A DNA stretch of 55,881 nucleotides, taken from positions 1 through 55,881 of the forward strand of contig DURD01000029.1 in assembly GCA_012837435.1 (NCBI GenBank), given 5' to 3'. The DNA is from Erysipelotrichaceae bacterium (GTDB taxonomy: Bacteria; Bacillota_I; Bacilli_A; RFN20; CAG-826). Below, one piece after another: positions 224 through 9,164 of the stretch; position 1 is the first letter of the stretch; every line of letters starts with the position of its first letter. The notes beneath the pieces are model-generated. The model was not told the origin of the DNA. It saw only the letters and a program-made list of their open reading frames with translations, and ran no database searches. The position numbers and the translations under genes are program-made.

Positions 224-2284
224 CTAGCTATTGAACTCTAATCTTTTGATGATATGGTTTTGGTAGACTAAATCTAATTCATTAAAATAGCCACTCCAGC
301 CCCATACTCTAACGATTAAGTTTTTATGATCTTCTGGATGTTTTTGAGCATCTAATAAAACATCGCGATTGATAGCGTTTAATTGCAATTGATGGCCCCC
401 GAGAGCAATGTATGTTTTGACGAGCATCGCTACTTTCTTTTCACCATCTTCGTTTCTAAATACAGTGTCATGAAATTCTAGAGTTAATGGACCACCATTG
501 CAAACATTTTGTAAATTTGGTTTGGTAAAAGAAGAAATAACTGAGAGAACACCATTAAAGTTGACGTTTAAACTCGGAGAATAATTTGCTGCGAAAGGCT
601 CGCCATTTTTTCTCCCATCAGCAGTAGCGCCAAGTTTCTCGGAATACCAAATGTAGTACATCGCTGTGCCTGTTCCTGCCCTATAACATCCACCTTTTGC
701 ATTTTTATATTTTGAGCATTCTAAAGAGAATTTATCTAATAATCTAACGGCAATATCATCAACATAGGCTTCATTATTACCCATTTTTGGAGAAGAAATT
801 AATTTCTTTTGTAAGGAAAGGTATCCTTCAAAATTATTGTCGATTGCCGTGAGCAATTCTTCTTTGGCAATATCCTTTTTCTCAAAGATGTGTTCTTTGA
901 TAGCCGCTAATGAATCCGAAGCGTTAGCAATACCGGCACCGTGAAATCCATAGTTATTATATTTTCCACCATCGGCAATATCTTTTTTATTATTAACGCA
1001 ATCTTTCATCAAAATAGATTGAAAAGGAGAAGGAATTAAGAAACAAGAGTGGTAAACGTTTGTCAAACGGAGTACTTCTTTTTCCATCTCTTTATTTACA
1101 ATTTCTTCAACTTCTTCATATGTCTGTGCATCCATAAAGGATTCGCTATGAATTGCTCTGTCTACTAATTCTGGAAAACTGAGAGCATCGACATTAGGAA
1201 TATCCATTCCCACTTTTGGAATGATGAATTCCCAGCAAGCCGCCATCACATAATCTCTAGCGTCTTCTAGTGAATATCCCAGTTTTAAAAGTGCTGGAAT
1301 AACGACATCGTCATTACTATATTGAGGAAAACCTAAACCTTTTTTTGTAAGTTTTGTGCCGAGTTCATACCACTTCATGTCAGTATTCTTATTAACCCGC
1401 ATATTGATTTTTGGATCTATTAAGTTCACTGTCAACGAGGCTTCTAAACATAATTTACTCAATTCGTTATAAGCATCGCTACCATCATTAGGCTTTACAC
1501 CCCCCAGGACCAACGATTGGCCATTATCGCCCTGTTGAACACCAGGATATAAATCGGCATCAAAGTTTAAAGAAATAAATAGTTCTTCTGTTAAATCAAG
1601 AGCTTCTTCATAGTTAAGAACACCTTCATCGATGTCTTTTTTGAAGAATGGATACATGTATTGATCAAATCTACCGATCGTATTGTGCTTGTTAGCGTTA
1701 ATCCAGAGCATGTAATTCATTATTCTGAAAAAGACTAGCGCTTCATGATAACTATTAGGTCTATTGTAAGGAACGTTCTCCAAAATTCTAGCCAATTTAA
1801 CATTGCCGACATTTAACGCTTCATCGTGATATTTTTGCACAATCTTGTAGGTAGCATAGATTGATTCTTGCATAGCCAACAATTCATCATTTTCTTTCGC
1901 AGTATTGTTCTCTTCTAGCTTTTCTTTAATTTCTTCAAGTCGCTTGTTGAAACCGACATTCAAAGTATATTCATAATCGCTAGAAATGTTACACACCAAA
2001 GCATTGTCAAAAATGCATTGGGTTTTTTCAATCTCTTTAATTTCTTCATCCGACAAAATGGATGGAATATGACGAATTGTGCGGTAAAAACCTATTCTTT
2101 CGTTTTCATAAACGATAGCCTTCTCATGCTCAACCATTTTCATTAAGCGACGAGAGACACGTAAAGGAAGAGAAATGTCTCTGTTTCCCACTATTGAAGA
2201 CACATCGATTTTTATGTCTCTTCTTAGTTTTCTATAATCTCTTTTTAACAATCTATCGTAACTTTCTTTAGTGATATAATTCAT
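224..2284 (-). CDS. Pyruvate formate-lyase-family glycyl radical enzyme (substrate unknown)
   Basis: 686 aa; C-terminal VRVWGWSGYF resembles the glycyl-radical loop RVxGY; candidate active-site Cys in MAACWEF; activase gene lies directly upstream on the same strand. Confidence 0.88.
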   Translation of the reverse strand: MNYITKESYDRLLKRDYRKLRRDIKIDVSSIVGNRDISLPLRVSRRLMKMVEHEKAIVYENERIGFYRTIRHIPSILSDEEIKEIEKTQCIFDNALVCNISSDYEYTLNVGFNKRLEEIKEKLEENNTAKENDELLAMQESIYATYKIVQKYHDEALNVGNVKLARILENVPYNRPNSYHEALVFFRIMNYMLWINANKHNTIGRFDQYMYPFFKKDIDEGVLNYEEALDLTEELFISLNFDADLYPGVQQGDNGQSLVLGGVKPNDGSDAYNELSKLCLEASLTVNLIDPKINMRVNKNTDMKWYELGTKLTKKGLGFPQYSNDDVVIPALLKLGYSLEDARDYVMAACWEFIIPKVGMDIPNVDALSFPELVDRAIHSESFMDAQTYEEVEEIVNKEMEKEVLRLTNVYHSCFLIPSPFQSILMKDCVNNKKDIADGGKYNNYGFHGAGIANASDSLAAIKEHIFEKKDIAKEELLTAIDNNFEGYLSLQKKLISSPKMGNNEAYVDDIAVRLLDKFSLECSKYKNAKGGCYRAGTGTAMYYIWYSEKLGATADGRKNGEPFAANYSPSLNVNFNGVLSVISSFTKPNLQNVCNGGPLTLEFHDTVFRNEDGEKKVAMLVKTYIALGGHQLQLNAINRDVLLDAQKHPEDHKNLIVRVWGWSGYFNELDLVYQNHIIKRLEFNS

Positions 2285-2295
2285 ATTCTTTTTCC

Positions 2296-3189
2296 CTATA
2301 AAACTCGAGCGCTGATGTTGGCTTCCTTAAATAAACCCAGTCTTGGATTTGACGGAACACTTTCATCAAATTTGGGTTTGTATTCTTTTCCGGCCATTTT
2401 ATATTTGGCTCCTGCATATTTATTGTATGGGAGAAGTTCAACCATACGCAAATTCGAATAATCTTTTATTTTGGAAATAATGGCATTGATATTCTCTTCT
2501 GTGTCAACAACGCCTGGAATAAGAGGAATGCGAACAATAAAAGGAATGTCGGTTGTGCCTAGGTATTTCAAATTCTCTAAAATGAGTTCATTATTAATCC
2601 CTTCGTATTCTTTGGCTTTTTCTTTATCCATAATCTTCATATCGAAGAGAACTAAATCCATTTGATTGACAATCTCCTTAAAATGTTCTCTTGGTGCATA
2701 GCCAGAAGTTTGAAGGGCTAAATGAATCTTATTCTTTAGAAGTGAGACGGTTTCTTTTAAACCTTCATATTGCGCTAAAGGCTCTCCACCAGAAAAAGTA
2801 ATACCGCCGTTATTGAAAGAAAGAATGTCTTTATTTTTCAACAAAATATCAACTAGTTGCTGTGGTTCATAATCAATGGCAGCAAATCTGATGAGGTTTC
2901 TCGGACAAACGTCAATGCATTTTCCACAAGCAACGCAATTTTCTCTACGAGTAGGACAAACGTCAAAACAAGCACCACATTCCAAGCAGCCATTAGGACT
3001 TCTCAATGTATAATTTTTAAAATCCTGCCCTTCTGGTGAATGACACCAATTACATCTTAACGGGCAACCCTTTAAAAAAACTGTTGTCCTAATCCCAGGA
3101 CCATCGTAGACCGAGAATTCTTCGATAGAAAACACACGAACTTTCATATTTTTCATCGGCATTTTAATATTAGACCTCTTTTTTTGCAA
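2296..3189 (-). CDS. Glycyl-radical enzyme activating enzyme (radical SAM)
   Basis: KGCPLRCNWCHSPE radical SAM CX3CX2C motif; two ferredoxin-like Cys clusters (CLECGACFDVCP, CVACGKCIDVCP); GGITFSGGEPL. Confidence 0.93.
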   Translation of the reverse strand: MQKKRSNIKMPMKNMKVRVFSIEEFSVYDGPGIRTTVFLKGCPLRCNWCHSPEGQDFKNYTLRSPNGCLECGACFDVCPTRRENCVACGKCIDVCPRNLIRFAAIDYEPQQLVDILLKNKDILSFNNGGITFSGGEPLAQYEGLKETVSLLKNKIHLALQTSGYAPREHFKEIVNQMDLVLFDMKIMDKEKAKEYEGINNELILENLKYLGTTDIPFIVRIPLIPGVVDTEENINAIISKIKDYSNLRMVELLPYNKYAGAKYKMAGKEYKPKFDESVPSNPRLGLFKEANISARVL

Positions 3190-3401
3190 CAGATATACTT
3201 TTTTTTACAAATCAGTAAAAAACTAAAATAGTATCCAAAAAATTTTTGGACTACCCTATCCAACAAATAAAGAGATCTTGCTTTTGATGAAGAGTTCGAC
3301 ACATCAAACACTACTTTTGTTTAGTATTTAATGTGCATTTTAATGTTTTGTTTAATCAATGAAACTTTTTAGTTTTTCATTTATACATGTTCAATCGGTG
3401 A

Positions 3402-3746
3402 TTATTTTTCCAAATTTTCAGCTTCAGAAATGATTTTGTTCAACCGATCAATTTTTGGGCTGGAATAGATACCTTTACTAGTTTCTGTGTCCTTGCAGTA
3501 TCTAATGCCGTCTTTGTCGAGAACTAAAATGTTACTGTTGTATCCAGGTAACGTTTTCAAAACGGCAGTAATTGAAACAGAACTTCTTTGAACTTCATAA
3601 CCGTACTTAGAAAGTATCTTTTCAATAGAATCGAGCGAAGCATGTGTGTAAGCTTCGATGATTTCTTGCCTGTCAGCATAACCCATATAGAACTCCTCCT
3701 TGTCTCCTTTTTCTATTCCATCACTATCAGTGGTGTTCATACACAT
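3402..3746 (-). CDS. Hypothetical protein
   Basis: 114-aa ORF; likely true start at internal Met (MGYADRQEII); no family recognised. Confidence 0.5.
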   Translation of the reverse strand: MCMNTTDSDGIEKGDKEEFYMGYADRQEIIEAYTHASLDSIEKILSKYGYEVQRSSVSITAVLKTLPGYNSNILVLDKDGIRYCKDTETSKGIYSSPKIDRLNKIISEAENLEK

Positions 3747-3838
3747 TGTACCTTTTTACCTCTCTTTTAAATGATATAACAATCATTTTTATAACATTTT
3801 TACAACTTTTTTACTTGATGTTTTAACTTCAAATAAAA

Positions 3839-3882
3839 ACTCGCCTTTGTCACTGAAATTTTAGCGATAATTGGCGAGTAAT
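3839..3882 (-). terminator. Putative terminator downstream of the tRNA-Glu/tRNA-Asn pair
   Basis: Minus strand ACTCGCC...GGCGAGT followed by TTTTATTT; long loop. Confidence 0.5.
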
Positions 3883-3889
3883 TTTTATA

Positions 3890-3966
3890 TGGCGACCTAT
3901 ACGGGATTCGAACCCATGAATGCATGCGTGAAAGGCATGTGAGTTAAACCACTTCTCCAATAGGCC
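3890..3966 (-). tRNA. tRNA-Glu (TTC)
   Basis: Cloverleaf: GGCCTAT/ATAGGTC acceptor, CATGC-CTTTCAC-GCATG anticodon arm, encoded CCA. Confidence 0.93.
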
Positions 3967-3972
3967 ACATCG

Positions 3973-4048
3973 TGGCGCCTACCGTAGGACTCGAACCTAC
4001 GACCGATCGGTTAACAGCCGATAGCTCTACCGACTGAGCTAGGTAGGC
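3973..4048 (-). tRNA. tRNA-Asn (GTT)
   Basis: GCCTACC acceptor, CTGTTAA anticodon loop, GGTTCGAGTCC T-arm, CCA. Confidence 0.95.
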
Positions 4049-4118
4049 AGTAGCAACCACGCTCCTCGAGCGCGGATTAAATATTATCATGCGCTTGCAC
4101 CAAAGACAAGACAATTTA

Positions 4119-4340
4119 TTATTTCTTCGACTCGATCAAATCAACGAGATCTTTGACAGTTTTTAGATTGACAATTTCATCGCTGGAGAATTCAACTTTT
4201 AGAACTTCTTCGATTTTTAACATCGCTTCCACTAGATCGAGAGAATCTAAACCAATATCCACAAGATTGTCCTCGTAACTTATCGAATTAACATCAACGC
4301 GATCCTTTATAGCTTCTTTAACAATTTCTACTGATTTCAT
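4119..4340 (-). CDS. acpP: Acyl carrier protein
   Basis: 73 aa; phosphopantetheine site motif VDIGLDSLDLVEAMLKIEE. Confidence 0.92.
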   Translation of the reverse strand: MKSVEIVKEAIKDRVDVNSISYEDNLVDIGLDSLDLVEAMLKIEEVLKVEFSSDEIVNLKTVKDLVDLIESKK

Positions 4341-4383: not shown

Positions 4384-4405
4384 AACGGCCCTTTTTGGAG
4401 CCGTT
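4384..4405 (-). terminator. Putative terminator at the end of the Tad-like operon
   Basis: Minus strand AACGGCTCC-AAAAA-GGGCCGTT followed by TTC; just downstream of the 47-aa ORF stop. Confidence 0.5.
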
Positions 4406-4425: not shown

Positions 4426-4569
4426 TTATATGCTACTAACTATTTTCGCGACTTCGCTCGAAACAGAATTTGTCAAGTTAGTAAACACTGTTGTCAAACT
4501 AGCGGCGACGATACCAAACACCATGATAACTAAGATGATACCTAATAACTGCCCTTTAATTTCAGACAT
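4426..4569 (-). CDS. Small pilin-like protein (47 aa), last gene of the Tad-like operon
   Basis: Hand translation: MSEIKGQLLGIILVIMVFGIVAASLTTVFTNLTNSVSSEVAKIVSSI; short charged N-terminus then a hydrophobic stretch; below the ORF-track length cutoff; preceded by AGGAAGG. Confidence 0.72.
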   Translation of the reverse strand: MSEIKGQLLGIILVIMVFGIVAASLTTVFTNLTNSVSSEVAKIVSSI

Positions 4570-4583
4570 AACCTTCCTCCTTT

Positions 4584-4925
4584 CTATCCATAAAAACCGA
4601 TGATGGTCATTCTTTGCACCGCAATCGTCATTTCATTTTTATCGATAACCATGGGATGGAATTTGCTCGTGATAATGTAAGTAATCTTTTGGCCAAATGT
4701 CGGAGCGGGATATTCATCGCAAATAAATTCCACATGAAAAGTACTTTCAATTTCCTCGATAAATTCTTGATTAATAACTCCGTTTCTCGATATTAAATAG
4801 GAGATGTTATTAGCTTTAGCGTCTAAAGCGCTGTAGGCAGACTGCAAACACAAAAGGTCGACACCAAAAAGGAAAAATAAAGAAATAAAGATCATCGATA
4901 AAACAAGACTAATTTTATATGACAT
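4584..4925 (-). CDS. TadE-like/pseudopilin-like membrane protein
   Basis: N-terminal hydrophobic helix, 113 aa, within the Tad-like operon and overlapping the TadC-like gene. Confidence 0.55.
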   Translation of the reverse strand: MSYKISLVLSMIFISLFFLFGVDLLCLQSAYSALDAKANNISYLISRNGVINQEFIEEIESTFHVEFICDEYPAPTFGQKITYIITSKFHPMVIDKNEMTIAVQRMTIIGFYG

Positions 4926-5580
4926 TAACGAGCTCTCCTAAAACCGATAATATGGAAATCGTTAAAGAAATAGTAATGAGACCCGCTCCTACGAGAGGAA
5001 AGGTTGACATATTAGTTAACGATTTTTCTTTTTGTTCCATCATTTCTTTGTCGCGATTTTTAGCTAGTTCATCAAATGTCGCATTAAACTGATTTAATTG
5101 AGAACTATTTTCCCCTTGGTCGACCATTTGATAAATCGAAAGCATCAAGCTAGAAAAGGCTACTTGTTGAAAATTTTTGGCAAAATTGACGAAGGGTTGA
5201 ACTGATTTATCTTTATCTATTTCTTTGAGCATATTTTCAATTTTTTCTTTCATCCAGAGCGAACAATATGGTAAGAGCAAATTAAAAGATTGATAGACAT
5301 TATTTTTGTTTTCGATATAGACTTCGAAATAAGAAATAATTGTCACTAATTCGTTTTCTCTTTCTTTCAGAATGATGTTCTTTTTGTCTTGATAACTGGT
5401 CAGCAAATAATAATCTAATAGAAATAGCCCTAGAATAGCGATGATGGCCCACACAATTTGGTCTAGCAAAAAGAAGAGTACTGCCGCAAGAGCAAATCCA
5501 ATAATATTGATTATCGTGATTTTTATTATTTCCGTCTGATAAGACAAACCGACAAAATTAATAGTTTCCTTAATTTTCAT
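4915..5580 (-). CDS. TadC-like type II/IV secretion inner-membrane platform protein
   Basis: 221 aa with hydrophobic segments around a helical cytoplasmic domain; sits after the TadB-like gene. Confidence 0.6.
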   Translation of the reverse strand: MKIKETINFVGLSYQTEIIKITIINIIGFALAAVLFFLLDQIVWAIIAILGLFLLDYYLLTSYQDKKNIILKERENELVTIISYFEVYIENKNNVYQSFNLLLPYCSLWMKEKIENMLKEIDKDKSVQPFVNFAKNFQQVAFSSLMLSIYQMVDQGENSSQLNQFNATFDELAKNRDKEMMEQKEKSLTNMSTFPLVGAGLITISLTISILSVLGELVNVI

Positions 5581-6277
5581 GTTCTTTCCATCCTTCTAAA
5601 TTGATCTGAGTAATTCTTTTAACCATCACATAGATGGAAAAAATAACAAAAATAAAAATAATGACGATGGAGCTTTGAAAGACCACTGTTTTGCTAATAT
5701 AGTGATAAAACTGCGAAAGCGCAAAACGCAGAGAGGCTAAAATGCCTAGGGCAATACTCCACAAAACTACGAATTCGATGACTTTTGAACGAGAAACATT
5801 TTGACAATATAGGACATATTGTTCTTTTAGTCGCACTTGATTGACGAGATGTTTACTCATCACGAGAATATCCCCTCCTTGTTCGTTCCATAACGTCACG
5901 ATATCCAAAAACAAATGATATAAATCAAAGGTGAAATATTTCTTTAAGTAAGACAACTTTTCTTGTTCATTCATTTCTTTTATCGAGTCAATGACTTCTT
6001 TGGTTTCACTATCCGCGGTTTCGTAACCGCTTTGCATCGCTGCGTTTAAAGAACCTCTAACGCTTAAAGTAATTAAAAAGTTATTAATGAATTGATAACA
6101 CTGATGGTAGCGACGGATTTTATTTTGGTATTTGTTGATTTGCCTTCTCACGAAGAAAACAAAAAATGATATAGTCAACGTAAAAATCAATAAGGTGGAT
6201 ATTAAGTTTTCACTCGTGATATAAATAGCGCCGGCAAAGGCAAAAGCAACAATTAGACCAATTAACACTAAGTTCAT
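5570..6277 (-). CDS. TadB-like type II/IV secretion inner-membrane platform protein
   Basis: 235 aa, GspF-like architecture; directly downstream of the CpaF/TadA ATPase. Confidence 0.65.
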   Translation of the reverse strand: MNLVLIGLIVAFAFAGAIYITSENLISTLLIFTLTISFFVFFVRRQINKYQNKIRRYHQCYQFINNFLITLSVRGSLNAAMQSGYETADSETKEVIDSIKEMNEQEKLSYLKKYFTFDLYHLFLDIVTLWNEQGGDILVMSKHLVNQVRLKEQYVLYCQNVSRSKVIEFVVLWSIALGILASLRFALSQFYHYISKTVVFQSSIVIIFIFVIFSIYVMVKRITQINLEGWKEHEN

Positions 6278-6279
6278 TT

Positions 6280-7332
6280 TTATCCTCCTATAAACGTTTT
6301 TTTGAAAAGTAGGCTCGCTTGAGATAAGTCTAATAATTGCAAGGCGGCCTTTGGTAACTTTCCATAACTCTTGGTAAGTCCATCGCTACCATATATTTCT
6401 TCCATGCCCTTCTGATCGAAATAGGCGATGGATGAAATGTATCTTTGAACCAATCCACTAGTGGTATATTTCCTCTTCAGGTAGATGTAAAAACGCAGGT
6501 TATGCGAAATATCTCGATAGACGTCATCGAAGCGTAATTTTTGAGGATTCATCATAATCATTCTCGCCATGCGGTTTGGCATGTTGTAGATATCAAGAGC
6601 GTGAATCGTAGTAATGATGGGATGACCAGTTAAAGAAGAATTCAAAACTTCGAGCATTTCTTCACCGCGTGCTTCCGCCACAATGAGCCAATCAGGATTA
6701 CTTCTCAAAGCAGTTTTAACCAACTTTCTGATAGAAACTTGCTCGCGATTTTCATCGGCTTGCCAGATATTTAAATCGAGTTGATTTTCTAAAGACAATT
6801 GATCTAACTCTAATATGTTATCGATGACGATAACGCGAGAATTTTCACTCATCCTCGTCAACAGATATTTTTGTAATTCCGTCTTTCCACTTCCCGTTAT
6901 TCCTCCGATAACTAAAGACACTTGAGAATAAATTAAAACATCTAATAAGTCCCTAATTTCTTGGCCTAGAAAACGATCGTCTTGTCCAATTTTTAAAGTG
7001 GTTGAAGACAAACGGATAGAAAAACAGACGCTTTCAATGTTGTTTTTGCGACAAACACTTTGGTGTAAAGCATTGATGCGATATCGCCCAAACGAAATAT
7101 CTAATTCGGGATTTTGATAAGAAAATTGTTTTTCCGCCAGATTAGCTATTTGCCGAATAAAATCTTTAGCGGTTTGATAATTGATCTTTATATCGCTCTT
7201 TAATCTTCCGTAGTTATTGTTCAAATAAAAAATATCTTCCCCATTATAAGAAATATCGGTGATATCACTATTTTTAACTAGGGGTGACAAGAAGGAATTT
7301 TCCAGATAATCAATTAACCTATTTACTTCCAT
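6280..7332 (-). CDS. CpaF/TadA-type secretion ATPase
   Basis: Walker A VIGGITGSGKTELQKYL; VIVIDNILELDQ; SNPDWLIVAEARGEEMLEVLNSSLTGHPIITTIHA. Confidence 0.93.
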   Translation of the reverse strand: MEVNRLIDYLENSFLSPLVKNSDITDISYNGEDIFYLNNNYGRLKSDIKINYQTAKDFIRQIANLAEKQFSYQNPELDISFGRYRINALHQSVCRKNNIESVCFSIRLSSTTLKIGQDDRFLGQEIRDLLDVLIYSQVSLVIGGITGSGKTELQKYLLTRMSENSRVIVIDNILELDQLSLENQLDLNIWQADENREQVSIRKLVKTALRSNPDWLIVAEARGEEMLEVLNSSLTGHPIITTIHALDIYNMPNRMARMIMMNPQKLRFDDVYRDISHNLRFYIYLKRKYTTSGLVQRYISSIAYFDQKGMEEIYGSDGLTKSYGKLPKAALQLLDLSQASLLFKKTFIGG

Positions 7333-7742
7333 TATTGACTCCTGATTTCGTAGTACATTGATCTTTGATAATGAAAAGAAAAAGTTAACGTTGCTTCGAC
7401 TAGTATTTCCGTGGCTTCTGGCTTATCAGAAAGGCAAATGGAATAATCTTCTTGATTGTAATAGGAAATGGTAACCGAATAATCTTTGCTATAACGAGGT
7501 AGGGAGTAGTCAAAATATGAATGAATATTGTCCTCTAATATTTCTTTATCGAAATAAGGATTTTCTCCTGTGGAAAGGTTATAAAGAACTACCGCAGTTT
7601 CAAAAAGCGCTAAAGGTGTAGATAAAACTAAGCGATTGATACCATTTAGTTGATAAGAAATCGTACAAAAGTTACATGACATCACGACAACAAATAAGGA
7701 AATAAACATTAAAAACATTACTTCGTTCCTCCTACTAGGCAA
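7332..7742 (-). CDS. Small membrane protein of the Tad-like operon
   Basis: 136 aa with N-terminal hydrophobic helix; overlapping neighbours on both sides. Confidence 0.5.
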   Translation of the reverse strand: MPSRRNEVMFLMFISLFVVVMSCNFCTISYQLNGINRLVLSTPLALFETAVVLYNLSTGENPYFDKEILEDNIHSYFDYSLPRYSKDYSVTISYYNQEDYSICLSDKPEATEILVEATLTFSFHYQRSMYYEIRSQ

Positions 7743-8839
7743 TGTTCTGCGTCATGACATAAACCCATCAATGATTTGCTGACATCATATTTAACTGCGA
7801 TGGTCGTCGACATTTTATCTGCACCTAAATCTTCAATATCGATAAATAAGTTTTTATCGTTAAAAATCTTCTTGCCATTTATCGGCAGATAAAAATCAGA
7901 AGTTAAGGCATAGCCTACTTGATAGGTTTCACTAATTTGTAGCGTTCTTTTGTTGACATAAAACTTGTCTTTAAATGCGAAGGAAACTGCTCCTTGTTTA
8001 TTCTCTAAAACTAAAGGAAGATTTATATCATTATGTAAATCATGATTGACATACGGAAATAGATTTTCTTTATCGTTAAAACGCAAATTAATATTTTTGT
8101 ACTCTAAAGGAAATAAACTTTCATAACGAAATTTAACGTTTTTTAAACTGAGTCTATAGTAATAATCGACATCTAAATAATCACCAATCTCACGAAAATC
8201 GATGGTTTCATAAATGCCCTTTAATGAAGTCCCATCGGCATAAAAACCTAAGTTTTGACTGACGTACGGATTTTGTTTTAATGTTTGATAATTAACGTAC
8301 TGATGTTTAGGCGGATAAAATTTCGCTTCGTGACCTTTTAAAATATAATTGCCGCTACTTTTCAATATTTCAAATTTTATTGTTAAACCTTTTTCTGTGA
8401 AAAAACTGCTGATAGGGACATTAAAAGAAACGTTATTTAAACTGTTGTTAGCGTATTCTTTGATGGCTTTAGTTTCAGCGTGCACCACTTCGTTATTACC
8501 ATCTAATAAACGCAACCTTTCTTTTATAGACTGATTGGAAATGTTCAATCGATAGTTGAAAGATACCGAAAAATCCTCATCGCCGACATGGTAAGGACCA
8601 TAGATTCCAGCTGTAGAAATGTAATCTGAATAAGTGTTGTTTGAGGAAGAGGAAGAAATCGAGGAAGATGGTTGCTTAGAAGAACTTGAAGCAGATGATG
8701 AACTAAAAGAAATTGGAGGAAAGGAAAGAGAGCCGCTGGGATTATTGGGATCGACAATAATTATCGGTGAACCAATTTTATTGACTGAATAAACACTAGG
8801 CAGTATAAACGCCAAAATTATTAAAGGTAATTTAGCCAT
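7718..8839 (-). CDS. Putative exported protein with Ser-rich linker
   Basis: 373 aa; N-terminal hydrophobic signal MAKLPLIILAFILPSVYS, then SSSSASSSSKQPSSSISSSSS low-complexity segment. Confidence 0.6.
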   Translation of the reverse strand: MAKLPLIILAFILPSVYSVNKIGSPIIIVDPNNPSGSLSFPPISFSSSSASSSSKQPSSSISSSSSNNTYSDYISTAGIYGPYHVGDEDFSVSFNYRLNISNQSIKERLRLLDGNNEVVHAETKAIKEYANNSLNNVSFNVPISSFFTEKGLTIKFEILKSSGNYILKGHEAKFYPPKHQYVNYQTLKQNPYVSQNLGFYADGTSLKGIYETIDFREIGDYLDVDYYYRLSLKNVKFRYESLFPLEYKNINLRFNDKENLFPYVNHDLHNDINLPLVLENKQGAVSFAFKDKFYVNKRTLQISETYQVGYALTSDFYLPINGKKIFNDKNLFIDIEDLGADKMSTTIAVKYDVSKSLMGLCHDAEHCLVGGTK

Positions 8840-9164
8840 TATAAAACGCTCCTAAAAAGCTTAGCATCGCTTGCTTTTTATACCGATAGAAACTCGCTTT
8901 TGTGTAAATAGGTTTCCACCAATCTTCATAGTTTTGAAAGAAAAACTCGCTATTAATGAGAATTTTTTCTTTGTCGTTGAGAGATTCGAAAGCATTTAAA
9001 ACTTTGAAGAGATAAATGCGATAAGAACCTTCGCCGCAATATTCATTCTCTCCTAGAGATTGTTCACTTTTTAATTGATGGAGTCTCCGCGCTAAAAAGT
9101 AGCGCTGTGCTATCATTTCCGTCATGGCGTTTAAATCTTTGAAACTCTTCTTATCAAATGTCAC
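8832..9164 (-). CDS. Small protein with possible C-terminal HTH
   Basis: 110 aa; LNDKEKILINSEFF...YTKASFYRYKKQAMLSFLGAF resembles a sigma-like/helix-turn-helix layout. Confidence 0.45.
   Translation of the reverse strand: MTFDKKSFKDLNAMTEMIAQRYFLARRLHQLKSEQSLGENEYCGEGSYRIYLFKVLNAFESLNDKEKILINSEFFFQNYEDWWKPIYTKASFYRYKKQAMLSFLGAFYNG

Follow-up and report, generated by a model that had tools for sequence, protein, structure and literature searches.

The window, a stretch of 55,881 nucleotides from contig DURD01000029.1 of an Erysipelotrichaceae bacterium of the family CAG-826 in the order RFN20, contains a group of minus-strand genes in the order g1, g2, g3, g4, g5, g6, g7 and g8, followed by a terminator-like hairpin and g9. 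Gene g4 (6280–7332) encodes an assembly ATPase of the TadA/CpaF/VirB11 type that matches T2SSE (3.3e-22), the TadA-family profile TIGR03819 (1.1e-30, which is below the curated cut-off of that profile) and solved structures of CpaF (1.7e-23), as well as those of VirB11 and FlaI; the ATPase profile likewise matches archaeal FlaI and GspE-type ATPases. Two adjacent membrane proteins, g5 (5570–6277) and g6 (4915–5580), occur in every complete locus and resemble the platform proteins TadB and TadC, respectively, with weak T2SSF matches in 2/36 members of the g5 family and 5/36 of the g6 family (best E 1.1e-4). The 113-residue product of g7 (4584–4925) resembles a minor pilin of the TadF kind, with weak TadF matches in 7 of 44 members and an AF2-predicted fold consisting of a long N-terminal helix of 47 residues (2–48) and a small head, for which a structure search returned no meaningful match. 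Gene g3 (7332–7742) encodes a single-helix exported protein of about 128–136 residues that is TadE-like by size and place, matches no family, pilin families included, and has no leader of any kind ahead of its helix. Neither TadZ nor TadG was recognized among the nine genes of the locus.

The remaining genes are additional to the set shared with the Tad pilus systems that are described below. Gene g2 (7718–8839) encodes an exported protein of about 370 residues with predicted Ig-like β-sandwich domains (pLDDT about 97–98 over most of residues 71–350). It belongs to no family, and its structure search matches generic β-sandwich domains only; we consider it a candidate tip protein or adhesin, and the predicted fold suggests an adhesive role for the filament. 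A role in DNA uptake or competence is not favored because ComEC does not track the operon, being found in 32/46 family genomes with the ATPase and 6/11 without it, with no match in the window's own genome. The g2 family ends in a conserved cysteine pair of the type C..S.YC, and a spaced cysteine pair is also found in the g3 family; these could possibly form disulfides in exported parts of the machine. Gene g1 (8832–9164), of the MG284/MPN403 family with weak ArpU/sigma-like matches (26/32 members), is a possible regulator. Its family is present in many genomes that lack the operon, including small single-contig ones that read in-gene TGA in a mycoplasma-like manner, and we rejected the idea that g1 marks an operon remnant in mycoplasmas because the MG284-like gene is far more widespread than the operon. 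In one genome of the same order with no ATPase (G026, locus L157, 1212–3164), g1, a g2-like gene and a g3-sized exported protein are followed directly by an apparent platform-protein N terminus, the arrangement that deletion of the ATPase gene from within the operon would leave. Gene g9 (4119–4340) encodes an acyl carrier protein (PP-binding, 1e-12), which accompanies the operon in 64 of 81 loci spanning very diverged species. By eye, we also noted a glycyl-radical enzyme (RVWGWSGYF near its C terminus) and a radical-SAM activating enzyme adjoining the pilus locus at 224–3189 on the minus strand.

The smallest gene, g8 (4426–4569), runs from an ATG at 4569 to a stop at 4426 and encodes the 47-residue product MSEIKGQLLGIILVIMVFGIVAASLTTVFTNLTNSVSSEVAKIVSSI. 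Re-reading the DNA reproduced exactly the ORF, coordinates and translation given in a first-pass annotation made by a model from the sequence alone. A strong ribosome-binding site, AGAAAGGAGG, lies ahead of g8 at 4576–4585 on the minus strand, and similar sites precede it in most loci. Because g8 is short and under the usual size cut-offs, it might be taken for a spurious ORF, for which we see practically no chance: the gene is present in all 74 complete loci, dN/dS values of 0.02–0.25 in the tested pairs indicate purifying selection, and the ribosome-binding site is conserved. Synonymous codon changes are abundant at the conserved sites of g8, and frames 0 and 2 antisense to it are closed in 66/67 and 67/67 sequences, respectively. 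Our analysis thus confirms g8 as a genuine gene that selection has maintained throughout an order of gut bacteria.

An ATPase-based scan returned 80 loci beyond the window in MAGs of Bacilli, whose labels are mostly Erysipelotrichaceae, Bacillales or Bacilli; many come from rumen or gut. With the window included, 74 of the 81 loci contain g8, and the other seven end at a contig edge before its expected place; g8 is thus found in every locus that reaches far enough downstream. It closes the operon in each complete locus, in agreement with the first-pass annotation, which had made it the last gene of a Tad-like operon, and it is co-conserved there with the ATPase and the TadB/TadC-like genes, for which the annotation had suggested a check. 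Across a class-wide sample, the ATPase is matched in 43 family genomes, 42 of which carry the pilin gene, and the two family genomes without the ATPase lack it; in the exception, G127, the ATPase match is only weak and PF00437 has none. The proposal was to be abandoned if relatives lacked the ORF, and at these counts they carry it. Two loci have tandem duplicates of the pilin gene (L058, 8780–8932 and 8989–9141; L079, 7699–7848 and 7882–8058), with more diverged second copies that begin MSEIKGALLTL and MSEVKGQILAV, respectively. Downstream of g8, a hairpin is present at 4384–4405 (minus strand), where the annotation had placed a terminator, and separates g8 from g9, a gene it had left unmentioned. 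Taken alone this hairpin is not significant (4 such found versus 7.2 expected from shuffling), but the g8–g9 gap contains a terminator-like hairpin in 38/52 loci versus 17/156 shuffles.

The N terminus of g8 is nearly fixed as M-[SG]-E-[IL]-K-[GA]-Q-L-L-G. M1, E3 and F18 never vary among 67 distinct sequences, in which K5, G6, Q7, L9, G10 and L13 are each conserved to at least 90%. The string K5-G6-Q7 (4549–4557), which looks like a class III processing site, retains lysine in 66/67, glycine in 63/67 (alanine in the other 4) and glutamine in 61/67 (threonine in 5, histidine in 1), and a few atypical copies have KGT, KGH, KAQ or NGQ in its place. Pilins with class III signal peptides combine a hydrophilic leader that ends in glycine or alanine with a hydrophobic tract of about 20 residues straight after it. 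In g8, the six-residue leader MSEIKG precedes an 18-residue hydrophobic helix, L8–L25 (4495–4548), conserved across the aligned members, as the annotation had read in describing a stretch of about 18 residues. A glutamate at +5 of the mature protein is missing, with residue 11 being isoleucine, valine, methionine or leucine in 67/67 sequences; in archaea, this glutamate is often absent. Members of the g8 family are 46–77 residues long with one hydrophobic helix, an anatomy that fits a short, headless Flp-type pilin. None has a significant match to pilin families in Pfam or NCBIfam, Flp and Tad families included, and the g8 profile matched no solved pilin when searched against structures.

The first-pass annotation had called the KGQ motif archaeal in style. 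The part of this label that stands is the motif itself, because archaeal class III pilins share with g8 a K-G|Q or K-A|Q string before the hydrophobic helix. The family assignment does not follow: matches to archaeal families are weak and none is significant (Pilin_N in 4/67 members, best E 0.027; Arch_flagellin in one member, 0.03). The mature length of about 41–60 residues is typical of Tad/Flp pilins rather than of archaeal pilins. Archaeal pilins, moreover, rely on A24-family peptidases (EppA, PibD and FlaK), and we found none here. As far as the sequences go, the likeness to archaea amounts to three residues and is no evidence of descent.

Processing at KGQ by a prepilin peptidase, as the annotation proposed, was not borne out. 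Peptidase_A24 (PF01478) has no match in the window's own genome, which is 93.6% complete, nor in G179, a single contig of 1,061,998 bases that is 99% complete and carries the whole operon with a pilin that begins MSEIKGQFLGM. Only three of 123 family genomes have a PF01478 match above the family cut-off, and the enzyme was not found in the other 120; one further genome, G134, has a 94-residue A24 fragment below the cut-off. In all three positives, a second ATPase, full-length and of the PilB type, is encoded 3–8 kb from A24, and the second pilus locus of G106 and G107 also includes a canonical FTLVEL prepilin, so the A24 of these three genomes most likely serves a different pilus. Among ATPase-bearing relatives of the same order, A24 was found in 0/7. 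With the same search, A24 was detected in 22 of the 23 genomes from other families that have a related ATPase, as well as in 12 of 14 controls; in G182, a short TadV-type A24 of 122 residues is encoded within the Tad operon itself. Near this operon, we noted by eye genes for a small WXG100-like protein and for a large protein that is secreted or lies in the membrane (L235, contig C7 of G182; 4018–4308 and 793–3933), which may represent a type VII secretion locus.

Broader searches gave the same outcome. The archaeal family PF06847 had nothing above the cut-off in 59 genomes, a screen of polytopic membrane ORFs of G179 for GxGD-type motifs returned no A24-like candidate, a custom profile trained on A24 sequences from the class and order gave no convincing match, and the operon contains no extra protease gene. 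In a subtractive comparison of G179 with about 951 kb of the operon-less G066, the two genomes were too diverged for the comparison to weigh for or against a dedicated peptidase. The annotation had named the absence of a prepilin peptidase from the genome as grounds against its proposal, and every search that we ran returned that absence. We did not find the canonical prepilin peptidase in this lineage, where the pilin and motor are kept. Most simply, A24 was lost on the way to this order, and pilin and motor were retained. Because the enzyme is missing while the KG|Q pilin is kept, either the pilin assembles uncleaved or some other protease cuts it.

In type IV filament machines, prepilin peptidase has been counted as a conserved protein, with Nanoarchaeota the sole phylum without one in that survey (PMC4471445), and a dedicated prepilin peptidase belongs to the conserved core described in PMC6916266. 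The minimal monoderm type IVc set given there consists of a major pilin, two minor pilins, two platform proteins, an ATPase and a prepilin peptidase (PMC6916266). With the Tad/type IVc (Flp) systems of monoderms, such as those of Bifidobacterium breve, Micrococcus luteus and Bulleidia extructa (PMC6916266, PMC12786226), the window's locus shares an ATPase of the TadA/CpaF group, together with a candidate short headless pilin, a pair of adjacent platform-like proteins and two proteins that resemble minor pilins. Unlike them, it has no TadV in operon or genome, its pilin has neither Glu+5 nor a curated family, it has the additional g1, g2 and acyl carrier protein genes, and no TadZ or TadG is recognized in the operon. 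By gene content, the locus would correspond to the minimal monoderm type IVc set minus the peptidase; it would work in the manner of such a system and is best called a peptidase-less variant, and we do not file it as a canonical Tad pilus because a defining feature, the prepilin peptidase, was looked for and not found. Our searches of open-licence papers, those on pili without a prepilin peptidase and on RFN20 pili among them, did not turn up this system.

Other families of the same class provide a comparison in which the peptidase is present. The A24-positive families (for example, L244, L245, L252 and L259) have a related ATPase and a pilin of 49–74 residues with a conserved six-residue leader ending in glycine (MKEATG|ELNMT), which adjoins a TadC-like gene where checked. 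They differ from the window's lineage in that nearly all tested genomes encode A24 and in both leader and mature sequences, and a profile search made no connection between the g8 family and their pilin. The almost fixed N terminus MK[EA]ATGE[LV][NS][ML]T defines this second short-pilin family, which we observed in Tad-like operons belonging to a different family within the class (L244, L245, L252, L257, L259, L262, L263, L265, L267, L268 and L269).

We consider it likely that g8 is a short pilin, probably the major one, and that it belongs to a pared-down filament machine of the Tad-like (type IVc-like) kind present in an order of gut Bacilli. The view of the first-pass annotation that g8 is pilin-like and a candidate major pilin remains plausible, and we infer its major role. 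The protein would insert with its six-residue, lysine-containing N terminus inside, the ATPase and platform pair would push it into a filament, and g3, g7 and g2 would act as minor, priming or tip parts. Against this reading, no filament is on record for these organisms, and the assignments of platform and minor-pilin proteins are weak profile matches. The missing Glu+5 and pilin family match would also suit a small single-helix accessory subunit of the ATPase and platform complex, leaving g7, with its pilin-like shape of long helix and small head, or g3 as the real pilin. We regard this as unlikely, because no other gene of the locus has the size and shape of an Flp pilin, the headlessness of g8 is a trait of Tad-type pilins (PMC12786226), the strong ribosome-binding site and recurrent terminator-like hairpin fit a highly expressed subunit, and tandem duplication, as in L058 and L079, is frequent among major pilins.

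If g8 is a pilin, it is most likely assembled with its leader still on, at slightly better than an even chance. This version is placed slightly ahead because no A24 was found and because g3, positioned like a minor pilin, lacks any leader. Cleavage at KG|Q by a protease outside the A24 family would be the less likely course for such a pilin, at somewhat under an even chance. The strict K-[GA]-Q string points toward cleavage, and its near invariance, as expected of a cleavage site, argues against an uncleaved pilin. We do not accept conservation of the leader as proof of non-cleavage: the A24-positive sister family has an equally conserved leader (MKEATG|ELNMT), so this feature does not separate the two outcomes. 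Taken over all explanations, takeover of cleavage after G6 by a diverged GxGD-type enzyme or a general membrane protease is a substantial possibility, although one that falls clearly short of even; near-invariant K5, G6/A6 and Q7 persist despite the missing A24, and position 6 of g7 is one of the small residues G, S or A in 69/72 members, but the operon has no protease gene, and neither the GxGD-type screen of G179 nor the A24 profile of class and order gave a convincing candidate. Canonical processing by an A24 enzyme that was missed, being either in unassembled parts of the genomes or too diverged to recognize, is very improbable. The window's genome is just 93.6% complete and the short TadV-type enzymes are divergent, as the 122-residue example in G182 illustrates, but the one-contig, 99% complete, operon-bearing G179, 120/123 family genomes and 7/7 order relatives with the ATPase all lack a match, PF06847 adds nothing in 59 genomes, and the same search succeeds in 22/23 genomes of other families and 12/14 controls.

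Our tentative proposal, to which we give a little less than an even chance, is that this whole order of gut Bacilli makes its type IV-family filament with unprocessed pilin, having lost the peptidase and kept pilin and motor in most sampled family genomes. What makes g8 an odd gene is its presence in bacteria without the enzyme that normally trims such pilus subunits. It would represent a pilin family of fewer than 80 residues in rumen and gut bacteria that is absent from the Pfam and NCBIfam libraries. If the proposal is true, an order-wide loss of the peptidase with retention of pilin, motor and platform would be a natural experiment on the need for leader removal; alternatively, the lineage may lead to a new processing enzyme.
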